Assembly (NCBI RefSeq): GCF_900107375.1
Contig: NZ_FNPT01000002.1
Coordinates: forward strand, 182,690-246,689
Direction: 5' to 3'
DNA length: 64,000 bases
DNA from: Lysobacter sp. yr284
GTDB lineage: Bacteria; Pseudomonadota; Gammaproteobacteria; Xanthomonadales; Xanthomonadaceae
Shown in pieces: positions 5,812 through 59,909 of the stretch; position 1 is the first letter of the stretch, and each line of letters opens with the position of its first letter. The notes under the pieces are model-generated. The model was given only the letters and a program-made list of their open reading frames with translations. It did no database searches and was not told the origin of the DNA. The position numbers and the translations under genes were made by a program.

Positions 5812-5918
5812 GCGCAGCGGCGCATCGCACCGCCGCGACGGCGGCGCGATGCGCGCCGGCGTTGGGCGTGGATGAGCAACACGCACGCGCATGCCGGCGC
5901 GCGCTCGGCGCGGACACG

Positions 5919-5944
5919 ACGAGGGCCCCGCGCGGGGCCCTCGT
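5919..5944. terminator. Perfect GC palindrome between convergent genes
   Basis: A 26-base perfect palindrome (arm acgagggccccgc) sits between genes ending at 5811 (+) and 5975 (-). It probably terminates both. There is no U-tract on either strand. Confidence 0.55.
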
Positions 5945-5974
5945 GGCGCTTCGAGCCTGAGGCGGGGCGAGCGG

Positions 5975-7957
5975 TTATAAGCGCCAGCCCAGCACGTTCC
6001 AATGCCAGGCCGCCCACGCGGCCAGCGCGAAGGCCAGCACCGCGGCGACATGGCGCAGCTTGCGCCAGCGGCCGAACTCGCGCGTGCGCAGCGCCGGCCA
6101 CAGCAGGGCGACATCGGCCAGGGTCAGCGCCAGCGGCAGCGTGCCCAGCCACAGCGCCGCGCGCAGCAATCCGCCCGGATAGCTGAAGACCGCGGCGTTG
6201 CCGGCGGAGACCAACTGCACCAGGGCGACGGCGAAGGCGAGCGCGAACGCGATCCAGGCCGCGGCGGTGAACGCGAGCCAGCGCGCGCTGCGGTCCGCCG
6301 CCGCGTCCGCGCGCGGCTGGCGCCGGCGCAGCCATTGCCCGGCCAACACGCCCAGCGCGGCCAGCACCGCCAACGCCAGCGACGCATACAAGGTGTTGGC
6401 GCTGTCCAGCGCGCCGGCGCGGTCGAACACGTCGTGGCCGTAGGGCGAGACGAAACCGGTCACGCGGCCGTTCTCGCGCAGGAACACCAGCCGGTCCGGG
6501 CCTTCCACGGCGCGGAACACGTCGGGTTTCTCGGCCGCCCAGCGCGAGGTTTCCTCGCCGGCGGACAAGGTCAGGTAGCCGTCGGCGGTGACGCCGATTT
6601 CGGCGTTGGTCGCGGTCAGCAGCTTCTCGAAGCGGCGGTAGTTGCGGCGCTCGCCGAGGTAGCGGCCCAGGTAGGGCTGGGCCGCGGCGGCCGCGCCCGG
6701 CGCCGGCAGCGCGGCCGGGCGCGCGCGGGCGAAGTAGCGTTGCAGCAACAGCCCGGGCAGTTCCGCGGCCAGGCGCCGACCGCTGTCGGTGTTGGTGGAG
6801 ACGAACACGCCGAAGCCCAGTTCCGGCACCGCCACCAGGTTGGAGTGGAAATACAGGGTGGCGCCGCCGTGCTCCAGGCTCAGCACCTGGCCGTAGCGGT
6901 GGCGGAAGAAGCCGTAGGCCAGGCCGGTGGCGTCGGGCGCGTTGGCGAACAGCGGCGCGCCTTCGAGCCGGGCGAACGCCGTCGCCGGCACGATCCGGCG
7001 GCCGTCGAGTTCGCCGCGGCCCAGCAGCATGCGCAGGTAGCGGGCCATGTCGGCGGCGTCGCTGGACACCGAGCCGGCCGGCGCGAGTTGCGCGATGTAT
7101 TCGAAGTCGCGTTTTTCGAAGCCGCCGTGCTTGCGCTCGTAGCCGTCCGACCACAGCCCGGCGAAGGCCGCGCCGCTGTCGCGCGGGTCGTGCTTGCCCA
7201 GCGGCTCGCGGAAGGTGGTGCGGCGCATGCCCATCGGCTGGAACAGGTCGCGTTCGATCAGCGCCTCGAACGGCACGCCCGCGGTTTGCGCCAGCACCGC
7301 GCCGAGCAGGGCCACGCTGTAGTTCGAGTACACCGCGTGGGTCCCGGGCTCGCGCACGCGCGCGGGGCGGTGGCGCTGCAGGTAGTCGGCCAGGGTCAGC
7401 GCGTGCTGCGGGTTCTGGGCGAACAGGTGGCCGAAGGCGGAATCCTCGTAGCCGGCGGTGTGGGTCAGCAGGTGGCGCAGCCGCACCGGTTTGTAGCCGT
7501 CGTCGGGCAGCTTCAGCGCCGGCGGCAGGTAGTCGTTGACCGGCGCGTCCAGCGACAGTTTGCCGGCATCGATCAGCGTGAGCGCTTCCAGGTAGGTGAA
7601 GGTCTTGGACACCGAGCCGATCCGGAACAAGGTCGCCTCCGGCGTCACTGCGCGCGCCGGTTTCTGCCCGGCCGTGCCGTAGCCGCGCAGCAGCAGCGGG
7701 CCTTGCGCATCGACCACGGCGACGGTGGCGCCGGCGATGCCGTAGCGGCGGCGGTAGGCCTCGACCACGCCGTCGACGTAGGCGCCCAGTTCGGCCGGGT
7801 CCAGGCGCGCGGCGGCGGCCGGCGTCGAAGGCGCAGCGCTTGCGGGCGCGACGGTCGATGGCGCCGCGGGCGTTTGCGCCAGCGGCTGCGCGCCGGCGGA
7901 AGCGGCGAGCGTCAGTGCTGCGAACAGCAGGTAAGAGCGAAGGCGGGACAGGCGCAT
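5975..7957 (-). CDS. Serine hydrolase (beta-lactamase/DD-peptidase fold) with C-terminal membrane domain
   Basis: This 660-residue protein has a signal peptide (to about 23) and an Ala/Pro linker. A class C/PBP-like serine hydrolase domain follows, with SxxK as S115-V-S-K118, the tyrosine motif YSN near residue 210 and HGGATLYF downstream. An insertion domain comes next, and the last roughly 140 residues hold three to four membrane helices. The family includes D-aminopeptidases, DD-peptidases and esterases that cut peptides in the periplasm. It is the last gene of the dgc run, 14 bp after the transporter, so cleavage of D-amino-acid-containing peptides is a reasonable inference. The membrane domain would tether the catalytic domain. 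Confidence 0.85.
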   Translation of the reverse strand: MRLSRLRSYLLFAALTLAASAGAQPLAQTPAAPSTVAPASAAPSTPAAAARLDPAELGAYVDGVVEAYRRRYGIAGATVAVVDAQGPLLLRGYGTAGQKPARAVTPEATLFRIGSVSKTFTYLEALTLIDAGKLSLDAPVNDYLPPALKLPDDGYKPVRLRHLLTHTAGYEDSAFGHLFAQNPQHALTLADYLQRHRPARVREPGTHAVYSNYSVALLGAVLAQTAGVPFEALIERDLFQPMGMRRTTFREPLGKHDPRDSGAAFAGLWSDGYERKHGGFEKRDFEYIAQLAPAGSVSSDAADMARYLRMLLGRGELDGRRIVPATAFARLEGAPLFANAPDATGLAYGFFRHRYGQVLSLEHGGATLYFHSNLVAVPELGFGVFVSTNTDSGRRLAAELPGLLLQRYFARARPAALPAPGAAAAAQPYLGRYLGERRNYRRFEKLLTATNAEIGVTADGYLTLSAGEETSRWAAEKPDVFRAVEGPDRLVFLRENGRVTGFVSPYGHDVFDRAGALDSANTLYASLALAVLAALGVLAGQWLRRRQPRADAAADRSARWLAFTAAAWIAFALAFAVALVQLVSAGNAAVFSYPGGLLRAALWLGTLPLALTLADVALLWPALRTREFGRWRKLRHVAAVLAFALAAWAAWHWNVLGWRL

Positions 7958-7971
7958 GGCGTCCTCGACGG

Positions 7972-9120
7972 TCAATGGTGGGAGGGGAGAATCGGCGCGA
8001 GAGGGGCCGGCGCCGGATCGCGGCGCCACAGCAGCCACACGCCGCGGGTCAGCAGCGGCAGCACGTACACCGCCAGCAACAGATAGGACAGGCCGCGATA
8101 ACCGCTGGCGATCAATGCGACCAGGCCGACGCGGTCGGCCAGGAACACCGAGCCCAGCAACAGCGCCGCGGCCAGCGCCAGCCGCGCGCGCGGCGGCCAC
8201 GGCCGGCCGCGGCGCGCGCGCCAGGCCGCGGCGGCGCGTTCGTTGATCGCGTGCACCGCGCCGGCGCCGCTTTCGAGCAATGCGGCGAACACCATCAGCT
8301 GGAACAGCGCATGGAACCACGGCCGACCGAGCCGTTGCAGCAGGTAGTCCGACGGCAGCGCCGCGTCGGCGACCTGGGCCTGGAAGCCGATCATGCACAC
8401 GAAGAACGCCAGCGCCGGCAGCATCGCCAGCGGCCCGGCGATGAGGCCGGCGACGGCGGCGTCGCGGCGGCCGGCGAAGTGCCGCGCTACCGGCAGGATC
8501 ACCACCGCGCCGACCAAGTTGTAGCCGGCGTAGGTCAGGCCGTCGCCGAGCCAGCCGGCGGCCGGCGCGGCCGGCGCGGCGAACGCGGCCTGGATGCGGT
8601 CGCCGAACGCCGACAGCGCCAGCGCCGCGAACAGCGCATAGACGCCGTAGAGGAACACCGACACCCACTTGAACACGCGTTCCACCGATTCGTTGCCGAA
8701 GCTCACCACCGCCGCGATCGCCGCGACCAGGCAGGCGGCGCCGGCCAGCGGCGGCCAGCCGAACAAGGCCTGGCCGATCGCGCCGGCGGCGGCGCCGAAC
8801 ACCGCCAGCAGCACGATCAGCAGCGCCAGGTAGGCCAGCTCGAACGTCCACCACAGCGGCCCGAGCAGGCGCTGGAAGAAACTGCGGTAGTCGAAACTGC
8901 GCAGCGCCTGGGCCAGGACGAAGGTGAGCATGCACACCAGGCTCCACAGCGCGGTCGCCGCGGCCATCGCGTACACGCCGCCCCACGGGCCGGCGGGCAG
9001 GAAGAACTCGACCAGTTCGCGTCCGGTCGCATAGCCGCCGCCGATCACCACCGCCTTGAACGCGAAGCCCGGCAGCAGATAGCGCTGGAACCACGAGCCC
9101 GGCGCCGCGCCTGCGCTCAC
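7972..9120 (-). CDS. YkvI-like membrane transporter
   Basis: This 382-residue integral membrane protein has about ten hydrophobic helices. It begins with the glycine-rich GGGYATGRELVEFF, an unwound-helix feature seen in LeuT/APC-fold carriers and in the YkvI family. The start is a GTG whose GTGA overlaps the stop of dgcN (9117-9120), meaning tight translational coupling. In this operon it is the obvious inner-membrane carrier for the amino acid or peptide that DgcN/DgcA process. The substrate is not known for this family, so that is inference. Confidence 0.75.
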   Translation of the reverse strand: MSAGAAPGSWFQRYLLPGFAFKAVVIGGGYATGRELVEFFLPAGPWGGVYAMAAATALWSLVCMLTFVLAQALRSFDYRSFFQRLLGPLWWTFELAYLALLIVLLAVFGAAAGAIGQALFGWPPLAGAACLVAAIAAVVSFGNESVERVFKWVSVFLYGVYALFAALALSAFGDRIQAAFAAPAAPAAGWLGDGLTYAGYNLVGAVVILPVARHFAGRRDAAVAGLIAGPLAMLPALAFFVCMIGFQAQVADAALPSDYLLQRLGRPWFHALFQLMVFAALLESGAGAVHAINERAAAAWRARRGRPWPPRARLALAAALLLGSVFLADRVGLVALIASGYRGLSYLLLAVYVLPLLTRGVWLLWRRDPAPAPLAPILPSHH

Positions 9121-10178
9121 GCCGGCGACTCCACGCAGGCGCGCACCAGCGCGCGCAGCGCTTCGCCGCCGCGGATCGGGTCGGCCACCGGCAGGCCCAG
9201 GCGCCGGCTTTCGCTGCGCATCAGCGCCTGCGCCTGGTCCGGCGGCAGGTGCGCGGTGTTGAAGCTGATCCCGGCGCAGCGGATCGCCGGATTGGTCAGG
9301 CGGCCCAGGCGCAGGTTCAAGTCGATGGTTTCCTCGATCGAGGGCACGGCGTGGCCGGGATAACCCAGCAGTTCGCGCCGGCCGGGCGCGTGGCAGACCA
9401 CGATCGCATCGGGCTGGCTGCCGTGCAGCAGCGCCAGCGACACGCCGGCATAGGCCGGGTGCGACAGCGAGCCCTGGCCTTCGATCACGTCCCAGTGCGC
9501 CGGATCGGCGTCGGGGCTGAGCCATTCGGCCGCGCCGGCGGCGAAATCGGCGACCACCGCGTCCAGCGGCAGGCCGCGCCCGGCGATCAGCAATCCGGTC
9601 TGGCCGCTGGCGCGGAACTCGGCGTCGATGCCGGCCTCGCGCATCGCCCGGGCCAGGCTCAGCGCGGTGTATTTCTTGCCGAGCGCGCAATCGGTGCCGA
9701 CGGTGAGCAGGCGCTTGCCGGAGCGCTTGCGCCCGCTCGCCGTGGGCAGCGCACTGGGCGGTTCGCGCACGTCGATCAGGCGGCGGCCGTGGCGCGCGGC
9801 CGCATCGCGCAACGCCGGCACCTCGGCCAGGCGGGTATGCATGCCGCCGATCAGGTCCAGGCCCTCGGCCAGCGCCTGCGCCAGCGGCGCCAGCCATGAT
9901 TCGGGAATGACGCCGCCGACGTTGGCCACGCCGATCACCAGCGCGCGCGCGCCTGCCTCGCGCGCCTGTCGCGGCGTCAGCGCCGGCAAGCCCAGGCCGA
10001 CCTTCGCTTCGGGCAAGGCGTACTCGCCGACGCAGCGCTCGCGCGCCCAGTCGCGCAGGCCGAACGCGGTCTTGGCGAAGGCCGGATGTGCGACGTCGCC
10101 GAGGAACAACAGATAGGGCTGGGGCAGGTCGAGCGACGGCAGCGGAACGGGCGCGGAGGTTGCGGCGGGAGTGGACAT
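9117..10178 (-). CDS. dgcN: DUF1611 family D-glutamate N-acetyltransferase DgcN
   Basis: This 353-residue cytoplasmic protein of the DUF1611 family has an N-terminal Rossmann-like part and a P-loop-like segment (VGTDCALGKKYTA, about 158-170). EGQGSLSHPAY and VVCHAPGR follow in the second half, then a C-terminal ISFNTAHL segment. In marine proteobacteria DgcN acetylates D-glutamate and works with the epimerase-like DgcA. Here dgcA heads the same operon. It follows the TonB receptor by 150 bp and overlaps the transporter by 4 bp. Assignment rests on the family plus the dgcA partner; the exact acyl acceptor could differ. Confidence 0.8.
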   Translation of the reverse strand: MSTPAATSAPVPLPSLDLPQPYLLFLGDVAHPAFAKTAFGLRDWARERCVGEYALPEAKVGLGLPALTPRQAREAGARALVIGVANVGGVIPESWLAPLAQALAEGLDLIGGMHTRLAEVPALRDAAARHGRRLIDVREPPSALPTASGRKRSGKRLLTVGTDCALGKKYTALSLARAMREAGIDAEFRASGQTGLLIAGRGLPLDAVVADFAAGAAEWLSPDADPAHWDVIEGQGSLSHPAYAGVSLALLHGSQPDAIVVCHAPGRRELLGYPGHAVPSIEETIDLNLRLGRLTNPAIRCAGISFNTAHLPPDQAQALMRSESRRLGLPVADPIRGGEALRALVRACVESPA

Positions 10179-21016: not shown

Positions 21017-21658
21017 GGGGCGCGTCCATCGGGAGGGCTGGGCGCAGGATAGTGTCCTGGCGCCACAAAGAAAGCGCAGGGCGACGAAACCCCGGGGATG
21101 GCGACCGAAACCCGGTCTTGGGGCGGCGAAGCTGGATGGCGGTGCGGCTGGCGATGCGGCTGGGTGGCGATGCTGCCGGACGGCGGTTGGGCGGCGCAGG
21201 GGCGAAGAGGCGTGGGCGCGCAGGGGCGGGGCCTGATTGCGCTGGACGCTCTGGGGGCGTGGGACGCAGGGGGCATGGCGGCTCGCGCTTGCTGGTGGCG
21301 GGGCGCAGCAGGGTGCGGCGTAGTAGGGCGAGATGCCGTGGTACGCGACGCAGCTGGGCGAGACGTAGCCGGGCGAGACGTAAGTCGGGCGAGACGTAAG
21401 TCGGGCGAGACGTAAGTCGGGCGAGACGTAAGTCGGGCGAGATGCGGGAGGACCGTTCGACCGGCGCGTGCGGCGCTCAGATCGGAATGCAGGAGCCGGA
21501 GTGAAGGAGGGCGCTGTGCAGGAGCGCGTGGTACAGGAAGGCGCGCTCCGGGAGGGCTGCAGGCGCGGCCGCTGCGACCGACGTCGATCCGTGGGCGACT
21601 GTATTGCCGGGCGGGTTGTCGTCGCGTTTCGCCTGCGGCCCGAGCGCGCCGGAGCCGG
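21017..21658. other. Intergenic region with tandem repeat
   Basis: Open frames exist on both strands but are low-complexity products of the repeat at 21356-21443 and of GC bias. No family, ribosome binding site or signal peptide supports a gene. Confidence 0.5.
21356..21443. repeat. Tandem 16-bp repeat, four perfect units
   Basis: The unit gggcgagacgtaagtc occurs perfectly four times at 21371-21434. It is preceded by a 15-base variant (21356-21370) and followed by a partial unit. The period is not a multiple of three, so the array is not a coding repeat. No spacers separate the units. Confidence 0.9.
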
Positions 21659-45749: not shown

Positions 45750-48700
45750 TCATGGTGGCTGCGGAGCGGTTTCGTAGAGGGCCACGAAACCGGGATTGCG
45801 GTAGCCGGCGCGCTGCAGCCAGGCGATCTGGCGCGCCGCGTCGGCGCGCTCGCCCAGGTGCACCTGGCAGCGCGACCAGGCGTCCAGGACGATGCGGTCG
45901 CGGGTGTCGGCGACGGCGTCGGCGAGCAGGCCCTCGACCTGGCGGAAGTCCGCGCGCGCGCGCGCAGCCTCGCCGGCGGCGGCATAGCGCTCGCCGCGCC
46001 AGGCCAGCGCGCGGGCGAGGCTGGACAGGTTGGGGATGTCGGCCGGCGCGTTGCGCTGCAGCGCCTGCAGATCGGCGATGGCGGCGTCGGCGGCGCCGAT
46101 GCCGGCGCGCGGATCGGCCTGGACCAGGCGCAGGCGCACCGTCGCATCGAGCAGGCGCCACTCCGGCGGCGGATCGGTCTCGCGCATGATCGGCGCCAGC
46201 GTGCGCTGCGCCGCGCGCAGCCGCTCCAGCGCGCGCTCGCGCGCGCCGGCCATCGAGGCGACCCAGCCGGCATGGGCGTAGGCGTGGCCGAGGTTGCGCC
46301 GCCACACCTTGTTGTCGGGTTGTTGCTCGACCAGCGAAGCGAGCATGCGCACGGCCTCGGCGCTCTCGCGTTCGGCCTGCTCCGCTTCGCCGCGGTCCAG
46401 CGCCAGCACCGAACTGCGCAGCAGCGAGGTGGCCAGCTTGCGCCGCCATTCGTCGGCGTCGGGCTCGCTGTCGACCAGTTCGCGCAGCATCTGCGTCTGC
46501 GCCGCGTAGCCCTGCGCGGCCTCAGCCAGCAGGCCGCGCGCGTCCTGCGCACTGCTCAGCCACGACAGGCTGTCGACCAGTTCGAAGCGCAGCGACTTGT
46601 CGTCGGGCTTGTCGGCCAGCAACTGGCGCTTGATCGCCACCGAGCGCGCGAACAGTTCGCCGGCCTCGTCGCTGCGCTGGCCGCTGAAGGCCAGGGTGCC
46701 GAGGTTGTTGAGCGCGTAGGACAGCTCCAGCCGCCAGCGCGGATCGGCCGGGGCGCGCTTGACCAGTTGCTCGGACGCATGCAGGTAGGCTTGCCAGTGG
46801 CTGCGCGCGCCGTCGAACTTCTTCTGCTGGTAGTCGTGATAGCCCAGCCAATAGGCGGTGGTGCCGGACTCGGCCAGCGCGTCCAGCGACTGCGGCGCGC
46901 CGGCGACCGCGAGCGCGGAGGCCTCCTGCGCGCGCTCGAACGCGGCGCGCGCCTCGGCGAAGCGGGCCTGGTTCATCAGCACCTCGCCGACCGTGCGCAA
47001 CGCGCGCGCGTGGCTGACCAGTTCGCGCGGCTGCATGTCGGCCTCGGGCATGCGCTCCAGGTAGGACAGCGCCTGGCTGCCGACGCTGTCGAGCAGCTTG
47101 AGGTTGCCGATCGGGCGCAACTGCTCGGCCAGGTCGCCGAGCATGAAGGCGACCAGGCGCTGGGCCTGGTCGCGGCGCTGCTCGGCCTCGCGCCGCGCCT
47201 GCCAGGCCTGCAGGCCCAGGCCGATCGCGACCACGGCGAGCAGGCACAAGGTCCCGATCGCGCCGACGCGCAACCATTGCTTGCGCCGCTGCTGGCGTTC
47301 GCAGGCGCGCAGGAACTGCAGGTCGTCGGCGTCCAGGTCGGCGGGCAGGCGGCGCGCGGCCTCGCGCGCTTCGGCCAGCGGCCGGCCGGGATTGAGCAGG
47401 TGGTCGGTGCGCCGGCCCTCGGCGGCCCAGCGCTTTGCCGCGCGCTGCAAGCGTTCGCGCGCCTGCAGCAGTTGCCGGTTCTCGCGCGTCCACTCGCGCG
47501 CGCGCGGCCACTGCCGCAGCAGCGCTTCGTGGGCGACGCCGAAGCCGGGTTCGCCGCCGCTGAGCTCGCCGACGAACAGGCGCGCGCGCACGAAGGCCTC
47601 GGCCAGCTCGCGCGCGGCCGCGTCCTCCAGGCTCGACCACGGCACCCGCCGGCCGGTGACCGCGTCGCTGTCGGGGCGGATCACGATCAGCGCCGCCAGC
47701 ACCCGCTCCAGCGCCGCCTGCGCCGGCGCCGGCAGTTCGGCGAAGGCCTGCTCGGCGCGGTGCGCCAGCGCGCCCTCCAGGCCGCCGAGTTCGCGGTAGG
47801 TCGACAGCCGCAGCACGCCGCCGTCGCCCTGGCGCTCGTACAGCGCCTGCAGGGTGTGCTGCAGCAGCGGCAGCGAATCGGGATGCTCGGCGGCGGCGTC
47901 GCGCAGCAGGTCGTCCAGGCGCAGCGAGCTGTCGGGGTCTTCCTCGAAACTCAGCCCGGCCAGCGCGGCCGGCGCGCGGATGATCTGGCCGATCTCGCCG
48001 ATGCGCGGGGTCAGCAGGTCGATGTGGCCGTCGCCGGCCTTGAGTTCGGCCAGGCCCGGCACTTTCTCCACCAGCGCCGGATAGAAATCGCTGCGGGTGA
48101 TCGCGATCGCCGCGACCCGCGCGCTCGCGCACAGCGCGTCGAGCGCGGCGCCGAAGTCGCGGCGGTCGGCATCGTCGATGCCCGGCGCGGCGACCGCGGC
48201 CTCGGCGTGGTCGACCACCAGCAACAGGTGGGCGCGCTCGGCCAGCGCCGCGGTGCGGCGGGCGAAGGCGTCGTCGATGCGCGCGCGCACCGCGTCGGGC
48301 GCGCTGCGCAGTTGTCGCTCCAGCCACGCCGCCTCGCCGTCGAGGAACACCGGGCGGCCGTCCAGCGACCACGCGCACAGCGCCTGCGCCAGCCGCGCCA
48401 GCAGGTCGCCGCCGCGGCAGGCGCCGAGGTCGAAATAAGCGCTGGCCAGCGCATGCAGGCCGTCGAAGCCGCCGTCCTGGCGCAACAGCGGCAGCACCCC
48501 GGCGCGCAGCAGCGAGGTCTTGCCGCAGCCGCTGGCGCCGGAGACCAGGACGAAGCGGCGCTGGTTGTCGATCTGCTCGCGCAGCGTCGCCAGCAGCTCG
48601 GCGGTGGCGCGGCTGCGGCCGAAGAACACCCCGGCGTGGCCCTGGTCGAACGAGCGCAGGCCGACGTAGGGACTGCCCTGGGTCCACGCCGCCGCGCGCG

Positions 48701-49073
48701 GCAGGCCGCTGCGGTAGTCGTCGGGAAAAGCCACCGGCGCGATCAGCCGATAGCCGCGCTTGCGGATGGTCTCGATGAACTCCGGCTCGCGGCTGCTGTC
48801 GCCCAGGCGCCGGCGCAACTGGGCGATGGTCTTGTGGACCGGGTTGTCGCCGTAGAAGGTGCCGCGCCAGATCTCGATCAACAGCTGCTCGGCGCTGACC
48901 ACCTCGCCGGCGCGCTCGGCCAGCGCGATCAGCACCTCCATCATGCGCGGTTCCAGCGCGGTGGACTGGCCGTCGCGGACGATGGTCAGGCGCTCGGGCT
49001 GCACCAGCAGCGCGCCGATGCGGAACTGCGAGACGCTGGCCAGGTTCTTGATCCGATCGATGCGTTGGGGCAT
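45750..49073 (-). CDS. OmpR-type DNA-binding / nSTAND1 ATPase / TPR sensor protein
   Basis: This 1107-residue multidomain protein has an N-terminal OmpR/PhoB winged helix (about 12-113; KTIAQLRRRLGD and TIRKRGYRLI mark the recognition helix and wing). The nSTAND1 lead-in PYVGLRSFDQGHAGVFFGR comes next, then an ATPase with Walker A GASGCGKTS (179-187) and a Walker-B-like LLLVVDHAEA (about 285). A membrane helix (GAIGTLCLLAVVAIGLGLQAW, about 606-626) precedes a long TPR-type helical array to the end. STAND proteins are switch ATPases that assemble on ligand binding. Here DNA binding faces the cytoplasm and the TPR array probably lies outside. The co-transcribed gene follows at 17 bp. Confidence 0.88.
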   Translation of the reverse strand: MPQRIDRIKNLASVSQFRIGALLVQPERLTIVRDGQSTALEPRMMEVLIALAERAGEVVSAEQLLIEIWRGTFYGDNPVHKTIAQLRRRLGDSSREPEFIETIRKRGYRLIAPVAFPDDYRSGLPRAAAWTQGSPYVGLRSFDQGHAGVFFGRSRATAELLATLREQIDNQRRFVLVSGASGCGKTSLLRAGVLPLLRQDGGFDGLHALASAYFDLGACRGGDLLARLAQALCAWSLDGRPVFLDGEAAWLERQLRSAPDAVRARIDDAFARRTAALAERAHLLLVVDHAEAAVAAPGIDDADRRDFGAALDALCASARVAAIAITRSDFYPALVEKVPGLAELKAGDGHIDLLTPRIGEIGQIIRAPAALAGLSFEEDPDSSLRLDDLLRDAAAEHPDSLPLLQHTLQALYERQGDGGVLRLSTYRELGGLEGALAHRAEQAFAELPAPAQAALERVLAALIVIRPDSDAVTGRRVPWSSLEDAAARELAEAFVRARLFVGELSGGEPGFGVAHEALLRQWPRAREWTRENRQLLQARERLQRAAKRWAAEGRRTDHLLNPGRPLAEAREAARRLPADLDADDLQFLRACERQQRRKQWLRVGAIGTLCLLAVVAIGLGLQAWQARREAEQRRDQAQRLVAFMLGDLAEQLRPIGNLKLLDSVGSQALSYLERMPEADMQPRELVSHARALRTVGEVLMNQARFAEARAAFERAQEASALAVAGAPQSLDALAESGTTAYWLGYHDYQQKKFDGARSHWQAYLHASEQLVKRAPADPRWRLELSYALNNLGTLAFSGQRSDEAGELFARSVAIKRQLLADKPDDKSLRFELVDSLSWLSSAQDARGLLAEAAQGYAAQTQMLRELVDSEPDADEWRRKLATSLLRSSVLALDRGEAEQAERESAEAVRMLASLVEQQPDNKVWRRNLGHAYAHAGWVASMAGARERALERLRAAQRTLAPIMRETDPPPEWRLLDATVRLRLVQADPRAGIGAADAAIADLQALQRNAPADIPNLSSLARALAWRGERYAAAGEAARARADFRQVEGLLADAVADTRDRIVLDAWSRCQVHLGERADAARQIAWLQRAGYRNPGFVALYETAPQPP

Positions 49074-51902: not shown

Positions 51903-52944
51903 GTGCAAGCGTAAGCGGGGGCGCAGTCGCAGCGGGATTGCCGGTACGCGTTCTCAGCTACGGCCTTCCGCGCGCTGTTGTCGTTCCGGGCCGGTGGAAG
52001 TCGCCCGAAGCGAACGTGCGTCGTGGGGCGATTCGAAGTGGATTGTTCCCGCGAATCGTCATTCCGGCGATAGCCGGAAGCCGCAGGATATTGCCGTTGC
52101 CGTTGCCGTTGCCGTTGTTGCCGTTGGCTTGGACGCAACCCCACGCGAAGGACACGTTCCGCAGCCCCGGAGGGCGTGCGCATGGATGCGCACGCGCGCC
52201 ATGGGGCAGGATGCCCCTTATGGCGCGGCCCCGCGCCTGGTGCTGGACCTAGTGGCTCTTGATTCGAAACAGTAATGCCTTTTCTTTGGTTACTTTCTTT
52301 GTGGCTTTGGACAAAGAAAGTGACCCGGCCGCTTGCGGACGGAAGCTTTGGATCATCGCTTGTCGTCACTCGCTGCTGCGATAAAGGCCGACCCCACCGC
52401 GGCACGCCCCCTGTAGGAGCGGCGCAAGCCGCGACCGCGCCACCACAGCGATTGCGAAAGTTTCGTCGTAGTTGCGTTGTCGCGGTCGCGGCTCGCGCCG
52501 CTCCTACAGACGGATACGCAACTCTGCTTCCGTCGTTGACGAGTGACGACAAGCGACAATCAACAGCTTTCGTCCGCAAGCGGCCGAGTTACTTTCTTTT
52601 GGCAGCGCGCCAAAAGAAAGTAACCAAAGAAAAACGCTTGTCTAAAGTCACCAGCCACCAAGTCCAGCACCGGGCGCCGGGATGCGCCGTAAGGGGCATC
52701 CTGCCCCTACGGCGCACGCGCGCATCCATGCGCGCGCCCTCCGGGTCTGCGGAACATGGGCCTCGGGCGGGGCCACGTCAGGGCGAACGGCAAGAGCAAC
52801 AGCAAGGCAACGGCAAGGCAAGGCAACGGCAAAGCAACGGCAAAGCAAAAAAATGGATTCAAGCTCCCGCCGGACCGACGCGCGAAAGCGGCGTGCGGGA
52901 TCGACGGGCCGCAGCATGCCGCCCGCCAAACCCGCACGCGAACC
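51903..52944. repeat. Large nested palindromic element, copy 2, inverted (core 52091-52852)
   Basis: This is the inverted partner of the element at 35466-36210. It opens with a near-perfect gccgtt hexamer array (52092-52126) and then the GC block found at the right end of copy 1. Hairpins follow at about 52286-52323 and 52588-52624 (the latter perfect, 15-bp arms). A REP pair sits in the middle (about 52411-52508), and a second hexamer array (caacgg/caaggc type, 52788-52848) closes it. As at copy 1, it separates convergent genes. 51903-52090 holds nothing recognisable except a short ccggc hairpin near 52070. Confidence 0.85.
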
Positions 52945-54426
52945 TCAGCGTTGCCCGCCCGTGCGCGGCGGCTGCGCCGCCGAAGCCGCCTGCGCCGCGC
53001 GCTGCTCGGCGACCTCCTCGCGCACCGCCGCCAACATCGCATCCAGCGCCGCGCGGTCGTGCACCTTGCCGCGCAGCACGAAGGTGTCGATCCGCCGCGT
53101 GGCGGCGATGTCGCGCAGCGGGTCGGCGTCGAGCAGGACGATGTCGGCGGCCTTGCCCGCCGCGAGCGAGCCGTGGCGCCGGTCCTGGCCGAGGAAACGC
53201 GCGCCGTTGATCGTCGCCGCCTGCAAGGTCTGCAACGGGGTCAGGCCGCTGTCGACGAAGCGCTGCATCTCGTCGTGCAGGCCGACGCCGGGATAGTTGA
53301 AGGAATTGAGGAAGCCCGCGTCGGTGCCGGCCAGGATGTTGACCCCGGCCTGCTGCAGCAGCGGCAGGATCGAGGCGTTGCGTTCATAACGCTCGTGTCG
53401 GCGCGCGATCGCCGCGGCGTCGTCCTTGGCCGCGCGCTCCACCCGCCAGGCGTACGTCGCCTGCAGGCCCGGGCCGATGTACTGCAGGTAGTCGTCGTGG
53501 GCGTGGTCGTCGCGATCGAGGTAGGTAGTGACGAAGCTGCCGTTGAGGGTCGGCGTCACCGCGGTGCCGCGCTGGGCCAGGCGGCGATACGCGGCCAGCG
53601 CGGTCTTGCGGTCGAACGTGGCCTGGATGCGGTTCCAGCCTTCGCGGCTGTCGATCTCGCCGCGGCGCACCATCGCGCTGATCTGCGCTTCCTGCGACGA
53701 GCCGGCCTTGTACGCGTACTCGATATGCTCGATCGAACTCAGGCCGGCGCGGCTGACCTCGTCGACCGGCAGCGCGAACGGCAGGTGCGCCGACACCCGC
53801 AGCCCGCGCGCGTGCGCCTGGCTCAGCGCGTCCATGAACAATTCCGGCGACAAGGTGTTGTCGGTGATCTTGACGAAGTCGACCTTCCAGCCCTGCAGCT
53901 GGTCCAGCGCCTTGGAAATCTCTTCGTGGCTGCCGACTTCGATGTCGCCGGGCCAGATCGACTTGTAGCCTTCCAGCTTCGGGCCGGACGTGAACACCGT
54001 CGGGCCGTCCAGGCGCCCGGCGGCGATCGCGTCGCGCCATTGGAACACGCTCGGGCTGAGGTCGCCGGCGGCGTCGCGCACCGCGGCGATGCCGTGGGCG
54101 ACGTACAGCGGCAGCAGGTTCTTGTTCTCCTCGATCAGCTTGTCGCCGCCGCCGAAGTGCACGTGCATGTCCCACAAGCCGGGGATCGCGTACTTGCCGG
54201 CGGCGTCGATGCTGCGCTGCGCCTGGTAGCGCGCGGCGCGGGCGTCGGGCTCGACCGCGACGATGCGGTCGCCGCGCACCGCGATCAGGCGGTCGGCGCG
54301 CAGCTTGCCGGCGACTACGTCGACGACGTTGGCGTGGCGGATCAGCAGGTCCACCGGCTCGGCGGCGACGGCGGCGAAGGGACTCAGCGCCAACAGCGCG
54401 ACATACGGACGGAACGGGGCGGGCAT
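52945..54426 (-). CDS. Exported amidohydrolase-family protein
   Basis: This 493-residue protein has a signal peptide (1-22, ending AVAAE). The metal-dependent amidohydrolase fold shows the HxH motif H88-x-H90 (LWDMHVHFGG). Downstream metal positions appear in VSAHLPFAL and SSIEHIEYAY, and the Asp in LAGTDAGFLN is followed by LTPLQTLQAATINGARFLG and GKAADIVLLDADPL. It resembles imidazolonepropionase/prolidase-like secreted amidohydrolases that act on cyclic or N-acyl substrates. AGGAG lies seven bases before the ATG. Confidence 0.87.
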   Translation of the reverse strand: MPAPFRPYVALLALSPFAAVAAEPVDLLIRHANVVDVVAGKLRADRLIAVRGDRIVAVEPDARAARYQAQRSIDAAGKYAIPGLWDMHVHFGGGDKLIEENKNLLPLYVAHGIAAVRDAAGDLSPSVFQWRDAIAAGRLDGPTVFTSGPKLEGYKSIWPGDIEVGSHEEISKALDQLQGWKVDFVKITDNTLSPELFMDALSQAHARGLRVSAHLPFALPVDEVSRAGLSSIEHIEYAYKAGSSQEAQISAMVRRGEIDSREGWNRIQATFDRKTALAAYRRLAQRGTAVTPTLNGSFVTTYLDRDDHAHDDYLQYIGPGLQATYAWRVERAAKDDAAAIARRHERYERNASILPLLQQAGVNILAGTDAGFLNSFNYPGVGLHDEMQRFVDSGLTPLQTLQAATINGARFLGQDRRHGSLAAGKAADIVLLDADPLRDIAATRRIDTFVLRGKVHDRAALDAMLAAVREEVAEQRAAQAASAAQPPRTGGQR

Positions 54427-54510
54427 GCGCAAACTCCTGGAAAGGCCGGCGGCGAAGGCCGCCGACGGCATTGTGCCCCAGCGCCGCGGCGCTATCGCCA
54501 AGGCGGTCGT

Positions 54511-54539
54511 ATTCCGCCACAGCCGGTCACGTCCATAAT
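54511..54539 (+). promoter_or_regulatory. Weak promoter candidate for the HNH/ATPase genes
   Basis: ATTCCG (54511-54516), 17 bases, then CATAAT (54534-54539), about 58 bases before the ATG at 54598. The -35 is poor. It is the only AT-richer segment in the 171-bp divergent gap. Confidence 0.3.
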
Positions 54540-54597
54540 GGCGGCCCGCGCGGCCGGAACGCCGCGCCAGCGTCGCAGCGCCCATGGGAGGGGCCGG

Positions 54598-56820
54598 ATG
54601 AGGAAGGTCAAACGCATTGCTGCGCCGCACTCGCTGCGGCGGCCGGAACTGCTGCATTGGGCGAGCGAGATGACCGCCTTCTACGCCAGGCCCGCGGACG
54701 TGCGCGCAGGCTTGCGGCCGCCGTTCGAACGCTACAACCGCCTGTTCCTGGACGAGGAGGTGATGCAGCGGCTGCGCGACCAGTTCGCCGGCAAGTGCGC
54801 CTACTGCGAGGCGCGGGTGGAACCGGACCAGGGCCTGATCGAGAACTTCCGCCCGGTCATGTCCGCCCTGGACCCGCGCAGCGGCCAGGAAAGCGCCGAT
54901 CACTACGCGTGGCTGGCCTACGAATGGCGCAACCTGATGCTGGCCTGCCGCGAGTGCGCCGCGTACAAGCGCAACGCCTTCCCGCTGGCGTCGCCGCGGG
55001 CGCGGGCGATGACCGCGTACCGCGAGACCGTGGCGATCGAACGCCCGCTGCTGATCGATCCCTGCCGCGACGACCCTTCGCGCCACCTGAGTTTCCTGCC
55101 CGACGGCTATCTGCTGGCGCGCGACGATCGCGGCTACGCCAGCATCGAGATACTGGCGCTCAATCGCGAACGGTTGGCGCGCCAGCGCAAGGACGCGATC
55201 GAGTTCGCCCTGGTCACCCTGGAGAACAAGATCGTCGGGCGCTATTCGACATCCGCCGGGTTCATGGAACAACTCGACACCCTGGCGCATTCCGGCGCGA
55301 TGCGCGCGGCGATCGATTGGGTGTTCGCCGAGGCGTTGGCGCGGGCCGGCGCGGCGTTTCCCGGCAAGCTGCGCAGCGACCGCGGCCTGGCGGCGCTCGA
55401 CGGCCGCGGCCAGGACTGGATCGACGCGGCTGCGGCCTATCGCGATTTCCAAGCGCGCGTGCTGGCGCAGGCGCGCGAGTCCACGGTCTGGCGTACGCGC
55501 GTGCATCCGCCGGCGGCATACATCGAATCGGTGCGGATTCGCGACTTCAAGGCCATCGACGACCTGAAACTCGACTTCGCCACGCGCAGCAGCCAGTCCG
55601 GGGCGACTTCCGGCGCGATGCTGCTGGGCGAGAACGCCGCCGGCAAGAGTACGGTGCTGCAGGCCTTGGCGCTTGCGCTCATGGATGGCCCCCAACGCCG
55701 CGCCGCGCGCGCCGACGGCGCCGAATTCCTGCCGCGCGAACGACGCTCCTGGGATCCGTCGCCGCAGCCGCCGCGGGTCGAGGTCCGCCTTTCCAACGGC
55801 GAGACCCGACGCCTGGGCGTGGACTCGATGGGCCGGTTCGTCGCGGACTTCGCCGACGACACCGACGCTTCTACCGACAGCGGAGTGCGCGCCAGCGCCG
55901 GCGCCGCGCCGATGCTGCTGGCCTACGGCGCACGCCGCTTCTTCCGCGCCCACGGCAAGGGCGCCGCCGGAGCCGTCGCCCGCAGCCTGTTCGACCCGTT
56001 CGCGGCGCTGCAGGACCCGGGCGCCTGGCTGCGCGATCCGGACAACCCGCACTTCGATCCGGTCGCGCGCGCGCTGCGCGAGATCTTCGCCCTGCACGGC
56101 GACGACCGCGTGTTCCGCGCCGAAGACGGCCACGTGCTGGTGCAGGCCCACGGCAGGGTCACCCCGGTGGAGCGGATGAGCGACGGCTACCGGGCGCTGT
56201 TCGCGATGGCGGTGGACATCATGCGGCGCATGGTCGAAACCTGGGGCAACCTGGAGTTCGCCCAGGGCGTGGTCCTGGTCGACGAGATCGACGTGCACCT
56301 GCATCCGCGCTGGAAGATCGAAGTGATCGCGGCGCTGCGCCGGGCCATGCCGAAGGTGCAGTTCATCGTCAGCGCGCACGATGCGCTGTGCCTGCGCGGC
56401 ATGCGCGACGGCGAGGTGCATGTGCTGTACCGCGACGAGGACGACCGCATCCGCGCGCGCGCGAACCTGCCCAACATCGAGCTGATGCGCACCGACCAGC
56501 TGCTCACCTCGGATTATTTCGGCCTGCCCAGCACCGCGCGGCCGCAGACCGAGGCCGCGTTGAACCGCTATGCCTACCTGCTCGGGGTGCCGGAACCGAC
56601 GCCTGCGCAGGCGCGCGAGCGCGAGCGGCTGGCGTTGGATCTGGAGGCGCTGCCGCGCGGCGACACGCCGGCCGAACAACTGATCGGCGAGGCGACCGAG
56701 CGCTACATCCGCACCCGGCGCAGCGCATCGCCGCCGCAGCGCGGCCGGCTGCGCGAGCAGGCGCTGGAGGAGATTGTGCGTCGGTTGGAACAGCGCCTGG
56801 GCAAGGAGATCGGCAAATGA
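54598..56820 (+). CDS. HNH-like domain fused to SMC/ABC-type AAA ATPase (Septu PtuA-like)
   Basis: This 740-residue protein has two parts. Residues about 60-190 form a module like the HNH domain of retron/Septu nucleases: C67-A-Y-C70, then IENFRP with N83 where relatives have His, then YAWLAYEWRNLMLAC and C117-x-x-C120. Residues about 308-690 form an ATPase: Walker A GENAAGKST (344-352), signature-like RMSDGYRALF (526-535), Walker B VVLVDEIDVHLHP (558-570) and a switch His in VSAHDALCL (594). PtuA-type ATPases sense phage infection and control a partner nuclease. The N-terminal HNH looks inactive and may serve for docking. The stop overlaps the next start as ATGA. Confidence 0.82.
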   Translation: MRKVKRIAAPHSLRRPELLHWASEMTAFYARPADVRAGLRPPFERYNRLFLDEEVMQRLRDQFAGKCAYCEARVEPDQGLIENFRPVMSALDPRSGQESADHYAWLAYEWRNLMLACRECAAYKRNAFPLASPRARAMTAYRETVAIERPLLIDPCRDDPSRHLSFLPDGYLLARDDRGYASIEILALNRERLARQRKDAIEFALVTLENKIVGRYSTSAGFMEQLDTLAHSGAMRAAIDWVFAEALARAGAAFPGKLRSDRGLAALDGRGQDWIDAAAAYRDFQARVLAQARESTVWRTRVHPPAAYIESVRIRDFKAIDDLKLDFATRSSQSGATSGAMLLGENAAGKSTVLQALALALMDGPQRRAARADGAEFLPRERRSWDPSPQPPRVEVRLSNGETRRLGVDSMGRFVADFADDTDASTDSGVRASAGAAPMLLAYGARRFFRAHGKGAAGAVARSLFDPFAALQDPGAWLRDPDNPHFDPVARALREIFALHGDDRVFRAEDGHVLVQAHGRVTPVERMSDGYRALFAMAVDIMRRMVETWGNLEFAQGVVLVDEIDVHLHPRWKIEVIAALRRAMPKVQFIVSAHDALCLRGMRDGEVHVLYRDEDDRIRARANLPNIELMRTDQLLTSDYFGLPSTARPQTEAALNRYAYLLGVPEPTPAQARERERLALDLEALPRGDTPAEQLIGEATERYIRTRRSASPPQRGRLREQALEEIVRRLEQRLGKEIGK

Positions 56821-57791
56821 GGCCGGTCAAGCGCGGCGACGTCGCCGCGCCGCGCTCGCTCACCCAGGCCGACGGCCCCGGCAAGTCGGAGGCGAAGCTG
56901 GCGCGCGCGCATTACCGCAGCGGCGCCGCGGGCAGCTTCCCGGGGTTCGGCGCCTACAAGGGCGACGACGTCGCCGAGGCCATGGCCAAGCTGTTCCACG
57001 GCAAGTGCGCGTACTGCGAAACCTTCCACAGCGCCGGCGCGCCGACCGACGTCGAGCATTACCGGCCCAAGGCCGGCGTCAGCGAAGATGCCAGGCATCG
57101 CGGCTACTGGTGGCTGGCCGCGGACTGGGACAACCTGCTGCCGAGCTGCATCCTGTGCAACCGCCGCAACGGCCTGCGCATCGCCAGCGCCGGCATGAGC
57201 CGCGCGCAGCTGGCGGCGACGGCGGAAACCACGGTGGGCAAGGGCAACCAGTTCCCGATCCGCGGCCGTCGCGCGCGCGGACCGCGCAGCGATCACAAAG
57301 CCGAGGACGCGTTGCTGATCGATCCGGCGCGCAGCGACCCGGCCCGGCACCTGTGCTGGCCGGAGGCCGGGCTGTCGCTGGTCGCGCCACGTTTCCACGG
57401 CCGCGCCGCCGATCCCTACGGCACCACCACCATCGAAGTGCTCGGGCTCAACCGCCAGCATCTGGTGGAAGCGCGCACCGACCATCTGACGATGGTGCAG
57501 GCTCGCCTGGCCGGGGTCGAGGCGCGCCTGGACGACGTGGCCTATCTGCCGCCCGACCGGGCGTTGGCCGCGTTGGCCCAGGTGGAGGCCGCGCTCGACG
57601 ACATTCAGGCGCTGGCGCAGCCGCAACGGCCGTATTCGGCGATGGTCGGCGCGTATCTGCAGGAGCGCCTGAAGACGCTGCTGGCGCGCAACCGCGCGCT
57701 GCTGGCGCAGGTGCGGCAGCAGCGCGAACGGCGCGACGCGAACAAACGCGCGGGCAAACGCAGCGCGAACAAACCCGGCGCGGCGCGATAG
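56817..57791 (+). CDS. HNH endonuclease (Septu PtuB-like)
   Basis: This 324-residue protein has an intact HNH module: C64-A-Y-C67, D78-V-E-H81-Y-R-P-K, YWWLAADWDNLLPSC (D105-N106) and C111-x-x-C114-N115. This is the TIGR02646/PtuB-type arrangement, with H81 as general base and Cys pairs binding structural zinc. The following region (DALLIDPARSDPARHL, TIEVLGLNRQHLVEAR) also resembles the matching part of the first gene, so both descend from one HNH gene. The C-terminus is a long basic helix. It is translationally coupled to the ATPase gene and should be its DNA- or RNA-cutting effector. Confidence 0.85.
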   Translation: MRPVKRGDVAAPRSLTQADGPGKSEAKLARAHYRSGAAGSFPGFGAYKGDDVAEAMAKLFHGKCAYCETFHSAGAPTDVEHYRPKAGVSEDARHRGYWWLAADWDNLLPSCILCNRRNGLRIASAGMSRAQLAATAETTVGKGNQFPIRGRRARGPRSDHKAEDALLIDPARSDPARHLCWPEAGLSLVAPRFHGRAADPYGTTTIEVLGLNRQHLVEARTDHLTMVQARLAGVEARLDDVAYLPPDRALAALAQVEAALDDIQALAQPQRPYSAMVGAYLQERLKTLLARNRALLAQVRQQRERRDANKRAGKRSANKPGAAR

Positions 57792-57828
57792 CGCGCGGCG
57801 GCCGCGCGCGGCGCGAAGGCCGCAGAAA

Positions 57829-57858
57829 AGAAAAATCGGCCGAAGCCGGTTTTTCTCT
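57829..57858. terminator. Bidirectional Rho-independent terminator
   Basis: The stem cggc/gccg with a GAA-type loop is extended by A5/T5 flanks (aaaaatcggccgaagccggtttttct region). It lies between the convergent genes ending at 57791 and 57879. Confidence 0.8.
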
Positions 57859-57878
57859 CCTGCGGACGCGGCCTGCGC

Positions 57879-59909
57879 TCAGCCCTTGGCGGGCTTGGCC
57901 GGCGCCTCGACCTTCGCCGCCGGCTTGGCCGGCGACGTCGGCGCGGGCGCGCCCGCCGCCGACGCCTGCCAGCCGCAGCTCCTGCCTTCGTTTTGCTGCT
58001 TGAGCCAGGTCTGCAGCGGCGCGAAGTATTCCAGCACCGCCGAGGCGTCCATCTTCTCGCCGCCGGTCAGTTCCTTCATCGTCTGCTGCCACGGCTGGCT
58101 CGCGCCCTTGCTCAGCATCGCCTCGAACTTGGCGCCGGCGGCCTTGTTGCCGTAGAAGCTGCACTCGTACAGCGGGCCCTTGTAGCCGGCCGCGTCGCAC
58201 AGCGACTTGTAGAACTGGAACTGCAGGATGTGCGAGAGGAAGTAGCGCGTGTACGGGGTGTTGCCCGGCACGTGGTACTTGGCGCCCGGGTCGAAGAAGT
58301 CCTCGCCGCGCGCCTCCACAGGCGCCACGCCCTGGTAGCGCGCCTTCAGCTCCCACCACGCCTTGTTGTACTGGTCGGGCTTGATCGAGCCGTCGAACAC
58401 GCCCCAGCGCCAGCGGTCGATCATCAGGCCGAACGGCAGGAACGAGACCTTGGCCAGGGCCATGCGCATCTGCGCGTTGATCAGCGCTTCCTGGCTCTGC
58501 TGCGGGTTGGCGACCATGCCGATCGAGGACAGGTACTTCGGCGTCATCGCCAGCACGATGGTGTCGCCGATGGCCTCGTGGAAGCCGTCGTGCGCGCCGG
58601 TCTGGAACAGCGGCGGCTGCTTGTTGTAGGCCAGGTAGTAATAGACGTGGCCGAGCTCGTGGTAGATCGTGGTGAAGTCTTCTTCGTTCGGCTTGATGCA
58701 CATCTTGGTGCGCACGTCGCCGGACATGTTCATGTCCCAGGCGCTGGCGTGGCAGACCACGTCGCGGTCGCGCGGCTTCACGAACTGGGTCTTGGCCCAG
58801 TAGCTGTCGGGCAGCTTGGGCATGCCCAGCGAGACGTAGAAGTCCTGCGCGCGCTCGGTCATGCGCTTGGCGTTGGCGAGCTGCGCGTCGACCTCCAGCT
58901 GCGCCTGCCCGGCCGCGTCGCGTTCGCCGCCGGCCTTGGCCTGCTGCGCGTCGAGGACCTGCTGGTACTGGCGCGCCAGCGCGGCGTTAATGTCCAGGCT
59001 GCCGGCCTGCTGCTCGCTGTACGGCGCCAGCACGTCCCACAGGTTGCCCCAGTCCTGCTGCCACATGTTGCCGAGCAGGTGCGCGGGCAGCAGGCCGCCG
59101 GCGACCTGGCCCTTGTCGTTGCCGTACTTGGCTTCCAGGCGCGAGCGGGTGTAGCAGTGCAGCTGCTCGTACAGCGGCTTGACCTGGCCCCACAGGCGGT
59201 CGGTCTCGGCCGACAGTTCGGCCGGGCTCATGTCGTAGCCCGAGCGCCACAGCTCGCCGGTGTCGGCGTAGCCGAGGTTGCGCGCGCCTTCGTTGACCAG
59301 TTCGACGAAGCGCGTGTAGTCCTTGCGCATCGGCTTGGAGATGGTGTGCCAGCCCTTCCAGGCGTCGAGCTGGGCGTCGTAGTCGCGGCTGTTGCGCAGC
59401 ACGTCTTCCAGGTCGCCGAGCTGGCGGCAATCGGTCTCGCCGGGGCCGCTGCAGTAGCTGCCGGCGCCGTACATGCCTTCCATGCGGGTGGCGATCTGGG
59501 TCAGCTCGGCGAGCCGGGCCGGATCCTTCGGCGCCGGCATCGCGGTGCCGATCTTGAGCAACTGGATCGCGCGCGCGGTGGCCGGCGACATCGGCTGGCC
59601 TTCGAACTTCCTGGACTGCTCGATCCAGCTGTTGAGCTGGCCGAGGTAGCGCTCGTTGGCCTTGGCCGACAGCAGCTGGCTGTCGTCGTTGATGTAGGTC
59701 GAGGACAGCCACTGCGCGGCGGTCATCTCCGGGTACATCTTCTTGTACTCGTCGTTGACCCGGGCGATGAACTGATCCGCGGTCTCGCCGGCCGGCGCGG
59801 CCGCCGGCGCCGCGGCGCTCGGGACGGAGGCGGGTTCCTTCTTGCAGCCGGCCAGGCCGATCACGGCCGCAGCGACGCCGAGCGCCAACAAGGCGCGGAC
59901 AGGTTTCAT
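57879..59909 (-). CDS. M2 family (ACE-like) peptidyl-dipeptidase, lipoprotein
   Basis: This 676-residue protein has a lipoprotein signal with lipobox LAGC22. The mature helical protein carries the gluzincin site HELGH (417-421) and the third ligand E445 in FHEAIGD, as in angiotensin-converting-enzyme homologues of bacteria. A family-typical [15 protein letters not shown] context confirms M2. It likely removes C-terminal dipeptides from peptides at the periplasmic side. A GGAGAGAG ribosome site precedes the ATG at 59909. The C-terminus carries an Ala/Pro/Lys-rich tail. Confidence 0.93.

Follow-up and report, generated by a model that had tools for sequence, protein, structure and literature searches.

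A Septu-type gene pair with a second PtuB fused to its ATPase

Two overlapping genes of Lysobacter sp. yr284, here called A and B, almost certainly belong to the Septu family and probably form a two-gene system of a distinct, widespread Septu subtype, in which A is a PtuB copy fused in front of a PtuA ATPase and B is a working PtuB nuclease. The pair lies in a 64,000-nucleotide stretch of contig NZ_FNPT01000002.1 (positions 182,690 to 246,689 of the forward strand), which we call the window and to which the coordinates of the pair and its surroundings refer (Table 1). In the fused copy, the position of the catalytic His is taken by Asn83 and that of the third-motif Asn by Ala121, and judging from these residues it is very probably catalytically dead, a pseudo-nuclease. 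The gene order, the homology and predicted folds, the grouping of fused ATPases in one clade and the near-constant linkage of the two genes are shown directly, as are the loss of active-site residues with much of the scaffold kept and the presence or absence of the pair at one site in the genus.

An earlier note on this DNA, made from its letters and open reading frames (ORFs), had described an ATPase with an HNH-like module at its N-terminus and a stop codon overlapping (ATGA) a separate HNH gene, and had called the pair Septu-like; coordinates and motifs bear out the former, PADLOC profiles and the predicted folds of A and B the latter. Both kinds of evidence divide A into a whole PtuB (residues 1-241), which is the extra nuclease-like module that the note had seen joined to the ATPase, and a PtuA (residues ~276-714). 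PtuB models of PADLOC also match the N-terminus (PDLC00339, E 2.4e-41). In the profile check that the note had proposed (HNH/TIGR02646, AAA), TIGR02646 matches the N-terminus of A (E 8.1e-10) and B (E 1.1e-9), both under its curated cut-off of 52.15 bits, and AAA is found in A, the AAA part alone being recognised there by Pfam. The HNH regions of A and B are paralogous, with 31% identity over 240-271 aligned columns. Among its ABC ATPase motif residues A also has His594; G344, K350, S528, G530, D562, E563 and H594 are invariant across 15 aligned sequences, while D529 varies.

The PADLOC PtuB model PDLC00328 covers residues 1-293 of B (E 5.1e-84), and the predicted fold of B is that of PtuB, with retron Ec78 PtuB as top fold matches. 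Pfam gave weak matches only (HNH E 0.14), and a sequence search of solved structures with B alone returned none; a profile built from 25 relatives finds PtuB among them. With Septu type I (E. coli structures 8eea, 8ee4, 8sux) the window pair shares a PtuA-fold ABC ATPase, an adjacent PtuB-fold HNH protein with an intact H-N-N motif, the order ptuA then ptuB with overlapping genes, and no reverse transcriptase (RT) gene seen. The E. coli PtuA chains of Septu type I (364-456 residues listed) align with A only from residue 307; unlike them, A carries a whole, catalytically degraded PtuB in front. Because its residues 1-241 form a further PtuB-like domain, A departs from the ATPase-only architecture and is a variant of Septu type I, not its canonical form.

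Table 1 Features of the gene pair and its immediate surroundings (window coordinates)
Feature	Position	Strand	Remarks
Gene A: PtuB-like pseudo-nuclease (very probable) + PtuA ABC ATPase	54598..56820	+	740 aa; PDLC00288 E 1.1e-248, residues 1-734
Fused PtuB-like domain of A	54598..55320	+	residues 1-241
First zinc Cys pair of A, C67 + C70	54796..54807	+	invariant in 15-sequence alignment
Degraded first motif of A, E82-N83-F84	54841..54849	+	Asn83 at catalytic His position
Second zinc Cys pair of A, C117 and C120, + Ala121	54946..54960	+	Ala121 at third-motif Asn position
PtuA-like ATPase part of A	55423..56739	+	residues 276-714
Walker A of A, GENAAGKST	55627..55653	+	residues 344-352
ABC signature of A, SDGY	56179..56190	+	residues 528-531
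Walker B of A, VVLVDEID	56266..56289	+	residues 557-564
Gene B: stand-alone PtuB HNH nuclease (predicted)	56817..57791	+	324 aa; ATGA overlap with A
Intact first motif of B, E80-H81-x-R83-P84	57054..57068	+	
Second-motif Asn106 of B	57132..57134	+	
Third-motif Asn115 of B	57159..57161	+	
Segment holding the A+B pair	54371..57875	.	G293 flank match stops 54370, resumes 57876
Left neighbour, amidohydrolase family gene	52945..54426	-	PF01979
Right neighbour, M2 peptidase gene	57879..59909	-	PF01401; in 20/20 genus genomes

Fused PtuB copies lose their active site

The comparison covers 48 distinct fused proteins: the one in the window, seven from genomes of the family, nine from plasmids, 24 from named genome contigs and seven from the phylum and order searches. 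Contigs were scanned with ATPase patterns only, the other searches using whole proteins or their alignment; 80 of 101 relatives on named genome contigs were taken in, and 10 of 98 matching plasmid records were examined, mostly chosen for coverage (nine fused; L019 unfused). Duplicate rows L100, L105 and L106 were dropped. A single alignment holds the fused domains, 47 partner PtuBs and 45 HNH partners of unfused ATPases.

In the partner PtuBs, the Glu, His, Arg, Pro, Lys and both Asn residues of the motifs are kept in 47/47. The fused copies all retain the four zinc Cys and the second-motif Asn (48/48 each), with the catalytic His kept in 17/48 and lost in 31/48, the third-motif Asn kept in 11/48 and the first-motif Lys in 8/48. 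His and third Asn are both present in five copies and both gone in 25. The partner-invariant positions that collapse in fused copies are those of the active site and a single Tyr that precedes the first Cys pair; besides the Cys, 21 positions stay at 90% or more. Septu EcB88 lost its immunity when the His or Asn of the PtuB H-N-H motif was mutated (PMC13096335), and so did a Providencia Septu on a change of PtuB His53 (PMC12935923); the EcB88 residues were equated with the first and second motif via the 16-residue H-to-N spacing of Ec78 PtuB. Given Asn83, Ala121 and the frequent loss of His among relatives, the description of the fused module as a second nuclease in the earlier note is very unlikely to hold here.

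Linkage of the two genes and their history

A ptuB gene lies directly downstream of the fused ATPase in 47/48 loci, with an end-to-start gap of -14 to +9 nt (by the chosen starts); the same profiles find a partner for 45/55 unfused ATPases. The gene of the exception, L104, ends just past the signature motif, and no PtuB match at E <0.1 was seen outside it within the surrounding 20 kb; from its sequence we read L104 as a decayed locus. Since the order recurs so widely and the lone exception is incomplete, the arrangement is not due to chance. Separate occurrence of fusion and second gene elsewhere, which the earlier note had named as speaking against its proposal, is not the pattern of these loci.

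Trees were made by a quick method without bootstrap. The incomplete gene of L104 was left out of the ATPase trees, unfused ORFs <390 aa were left out of the ATPase tree, and the HNH tree additionally omits L072, L087, L092, L093 and L095. In the tree of the ATPase part, one branch (SH-aLRT 100) has 47 fused proteins on one side and 50 unfused on the other, with no unfused ATPase inside the fused clade, which covers at least four phyla (Pseudomonadota, Bacteroidota, Bacillota and Actinomycetota). The HNH tree puts 43 of 47 fused domains in one group, and a second group (support 89, unstarred) comprises all 47 partners, the fused domain of L017 and three partners of unfused ATPases; the fused domain of L033 falls among ordinary PtuBs, and those of L022 and L036 stand apart. 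Because all partners group apart from most fused domains, the duplication that gave rise to fused and stand-alone copies is probably old. The N-terminal domain of the L017 fused ptuA (Rhizobium, 5899-8166) scores higher as PtuB than as fused domain and has Gln for the catalytic His.

Occurrence and insertion site

Genome searches scored the best two or three candidates per genome, and the single-protein search missed fused pairs found otherwise (in G256, and the second pair of G263), so that counts of occurrence are lower bounds. At E 1e-60 and with the genome of the window included, the fused form is present in at least 8/297 genomes of the family, at least 6/398 of the order, at least 1/369 of the class and at least 5/398 of the phylum, in draws that overlap. 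Within the genus, B occurs in 8/20 genomes and always adjoins the same M2 peptidase gene; A, or its end within the stretch examined, is present in all eight. The near relative G293 has only ~0.34 kb between matching flanks. Among the 12 pair-less genomes, amidohydrolase and peptidase matches are ~0.35-0.41 kb apart in G293, G273, G252 and G173 and 0.76 kb apart in G1308, and seven have no amidohydrolase match within the 1.5 kb examined. Compared with the window, carriers are 57-61% identical in A and 48-62% in B, and 82-92% in the flanking genes. Such a fast-changing, come-and-go pattern, read from genome comparison, resembles that of defence genes. Genome G263 holds a second fused pair (L153 8399-11666) away from the peptidase site; its fused copy is also degraded, with Arg for the catalytic His.

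A proposed role for the fused copy

We consider docking and restraint of the active PtuB the probable role of the fused copy. A fused ancestor of this copy would have kept its zinc-stabilised fold and repeatedly lost catalysis, becoming a built-in non-cutting subunit. Protein A would dimerise or oligomerise via its ABC ATPase, and the fused pseudo-PtuB would fill a nuclease position on each ATPase, where it may pair with, dock or aim the active PtuB. While ATP is plentiful the active PtuB would be restrained, with the ATP state governing its release; inhibition by ATP is reportedly described in the E. coli PtuAB structure paper. Infection, through nucleotide depletion, nicked DNA or some other trigger, would alter the state of the ATPase, and the single active site, once freed, would cut DNA or tRNA and so stop the infected cell and phage growth, probably via growth arrest. 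Trigger, substrate and anti-phage activity of the pair are what we infer here.

More tentatively, the clade could be a separate Septu subtype, spanning at least Pseudomonadota, Bacteroidota, Bacillota and Actinomycetota, with a pseudo-nuclease built into every ATPase. Selection would have eliminated the second active site time and again, with the fold preserved, because the system would need one cutting PtuB position in a fixed ratio to one or more non-cutting ones, the dead copy being a regulator and an immune pseudoenzyme. If this is true, it is the dead copy that allows a lethal nuclease to be kept safely. Septu and retron Septu effectors have been studied via PtuA:PtuB complexes, and ATPase control of the toxic nuclease seems to differ between them. 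According to PMC12948488, the canonical Septu PtuA:PtuB complex is 6:2, and the msDNA of the Ec83 retron keeps PtuAB inactive until released. A clade in which one PtuB position is covalent and repeatedly catalytically silent makes the question of nuclease restraint directly testable, the fused domain marking a PtuB site that evolution has fixed. For annotation it is also a warning: a nuclease domain within a defence ATPase may be inactive.

Several observations weigh against a docked, restraining pseudo-nuclease or limit the case for it. Outside the active site, fourteen positions at 91-98% in partners also drop below 85% in fused copies; a Gly-Lys insert, absent also from most partners of unfused ATPases, accounts for two of these, and as far as the alignment goes the scaffold is only partly preserved. 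The fused copies of L022 (Ensifer), L025, L027, L029 and L035 (Flavobacterium) retain all three motif residues (His and both Asn) and may, by these residues, still cut; 12 further copies keep His. The third-motif position is Gly in 5/45 PtuBs beside unfused ATPases, so loss of the third Asn alone is no proof of death and loss of His is the safer sign. On the tree, the five copies with all three residues amount to five changes, clustering like shuffled labels. If loss is irreversible, the minimum over 93 rootings of one quick tree is 11 losses of His, and 14 losses of His or third Asn (13 if Gly is counted intact); the counts are approximate because of weak branches and possible domain exchange, and they fail under reversal or gene conversion. 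Exchange or replacement of the domain is possible, judging from the grouping of the L017 fused domain with partners. ATPase and PtuB distances correlate (r 0.83, 0/2000 permutations in a Mantel test), which, kinship being uncorrected, means joint inheritance only. The predicted model of A has a pTM of 0.57 and says little on domain arrangement, and PADLOC finds no clear defence gene among the nine neighbour proteins in the window, with two weak matches only. The Gly-bearing HNH partners (L055, L056, L057, L059, L067; CCTECGR) have a conserved variant active site.

That the pair is an ordinary Septu type I, working like canonical PtuAB and carrying a functionless relic of a ptuB-ptuA fusion, seems unlikely. 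A relic would fit the filing of fused proteins as PtuA1 by PADLOC, the decay of catalytic residues in many directions, and the greater divergence of the fused domain, relative to the first 230 residues of the partner, in 82% of protein pairs. Retention of all four Cys and of the 21 other positions across at least four phyla would be unexpected of it, and the fused clade contains no unfused ATPase. Equally doubtful is a dead copy that serves as a sensor, still binding its nucleic-acid target or a phage product; the ATPase would sense this binding and then release the active PtuB. The first-motif Arg (45/48) and Pro (47/48) persist, and the frequent change of His to Arg (16/48) would suit binding over cutting; the pattern is equally explained by maintenance of the fold. 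Two active nucleases, one per gene, for two strands or two substrates, are very improbable: the shared PtuB fold and the 5/48 relatives with all three motif residues speak for them, yet the matching His of Septu PtuBs is required for immunity (PMC13096335 and PMC12935923), it is gone in 31/48, and for the window we reject this explanation, as His and third Asn are both missing. A restraining pseudo-PtuB is the reading that we favour over these three, and a retron origin, taken up below, fares no better than two nucleases.

Retrons and other known systems

Retron type I-A effectors PtuA/PtuB (Ec78/Eco7, Ec83) are the closest solved folds for both A and B, and in one relative, L015, a retron RT adjoins the pair on the other strand; it is nevertheless very unlikely that the window pair is the effector pair of such a retron with its RT elsewhere or lost. 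Unlike retron type I-A, no RT or RNA was found with it, and the NCBIfam retron equivalog cut-offs are missed (NF041760, 99.7 of 500 bits; NF041761, 42.7 of 150). Nor does any retron type I-A PtuA chain seen (up to 550 residues) carry a fused PtuB copy. The earlier note had stated that no retron RT is present, and we see none in the window: tblastn of one retron RT, that of L015, returned nothing at E <1 (a single query and a weak test), and the genes neighbouring the pair are of other families. The same single query gave no RT match in the other 40 loci to which it was applied. No Rfam family reaches its gathering score in 52000-58500, in a library that need not hold every retron RNA. On these grounds retron identity was rejected. 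L015, a Priestia megaterium plasmid, has an annotated retron St85-family RT (8979-9992, - strand) convergent to its fused ptuA-ptuB pair, and could represent recruitment of the fused form by a retron.

The earlier note had also held that the architecture was not known as described, and this stands in part. No description of the fusion or its lost catalysis was found in the searchable open-licence PMC papers. The genes themselves are not unknown to databases, since PADLOC PtuA1 models (PDLC00288, PDLC00291, PDLC00292) match A nearly end to end, including the fused domain, and 25/25 fused proteins scanned match them; shorter PtuA models match too. These models are described plainly as AAA ATPase domain, leaving the fusion and the loss of catalysis unmarked. 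The ptuXYZ operon (PMC11980606) is alike in having a PtuA-like ATPase with extra conflict genes, and differs in that its nuclease gene is DUF262, its third gene is PIN-YoeB and PtuX is unlike PtuB. A phage-borne origin was rejected: 7/50,697 phage records match, over 14-23% of the query and within ATPase residues 484-652.

Genomic neighbourhood

An association with defence genes is seen beside some relatives and not beside the window pair. The two weak PADLOC matches there are mad8 (E 1.7e-6), to a 1107-aa STAND regulator, and PDC-M28B (E 1.9e-8), to a MinD-like ATPase. The mad8-matching protein (45753-49073, - strand) combines a response-regulator-type DNA-binding domain with an nSTAND1 NTPase. 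Among plasmids, annotations place Shedu beside L011 and SAVED-domain, nucleotidyltransferase and ThiF genes beside L016, with no such named defence set annotated at L010 and L012-L014. Seven 20-kb stretches from other genomes (88 predicted proteins) were compared with seven same-contig 20-kb controls (119), excluding the pair itself and, in L143, a small ORF that overlaps A, and counting families per protein, not per locus. Among the families listed (25 of 118), the case neighbourhoods contain cyclase, HORMA, TRIP13, NucC, E1-E2, type IIG restriction, MkoC, RmrA, RmrT and Tmn, with mad2 in four proteins; among those listed for the controls (25 of 59) are PD-T4-6, IetA, MzaA and a 2TM effector, with mad2 in two.

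The repeat element at 52010-52920, next to which the earlier note had placed the pair, as is frequent for defence genes, is 0.7-0.9 kb long and largely an imperfect palindrome (reverse self-match 75%), with no gene assigned. It lies ~1.7 kb off past another gene and occurs at no fewer than 40 merged places genome-wide (from scoring 40 of 561 first-look candidates), contig ends accounting for at least 11, so its closeness means little and a link to the pair was rejected. The promoter scan found none, and terminator-like sites number two against 1.7 expected. Elsewhere in the window, 21356-21442 is a tandem array of a 16-base unit in 5.5 copies, with 97% matches.

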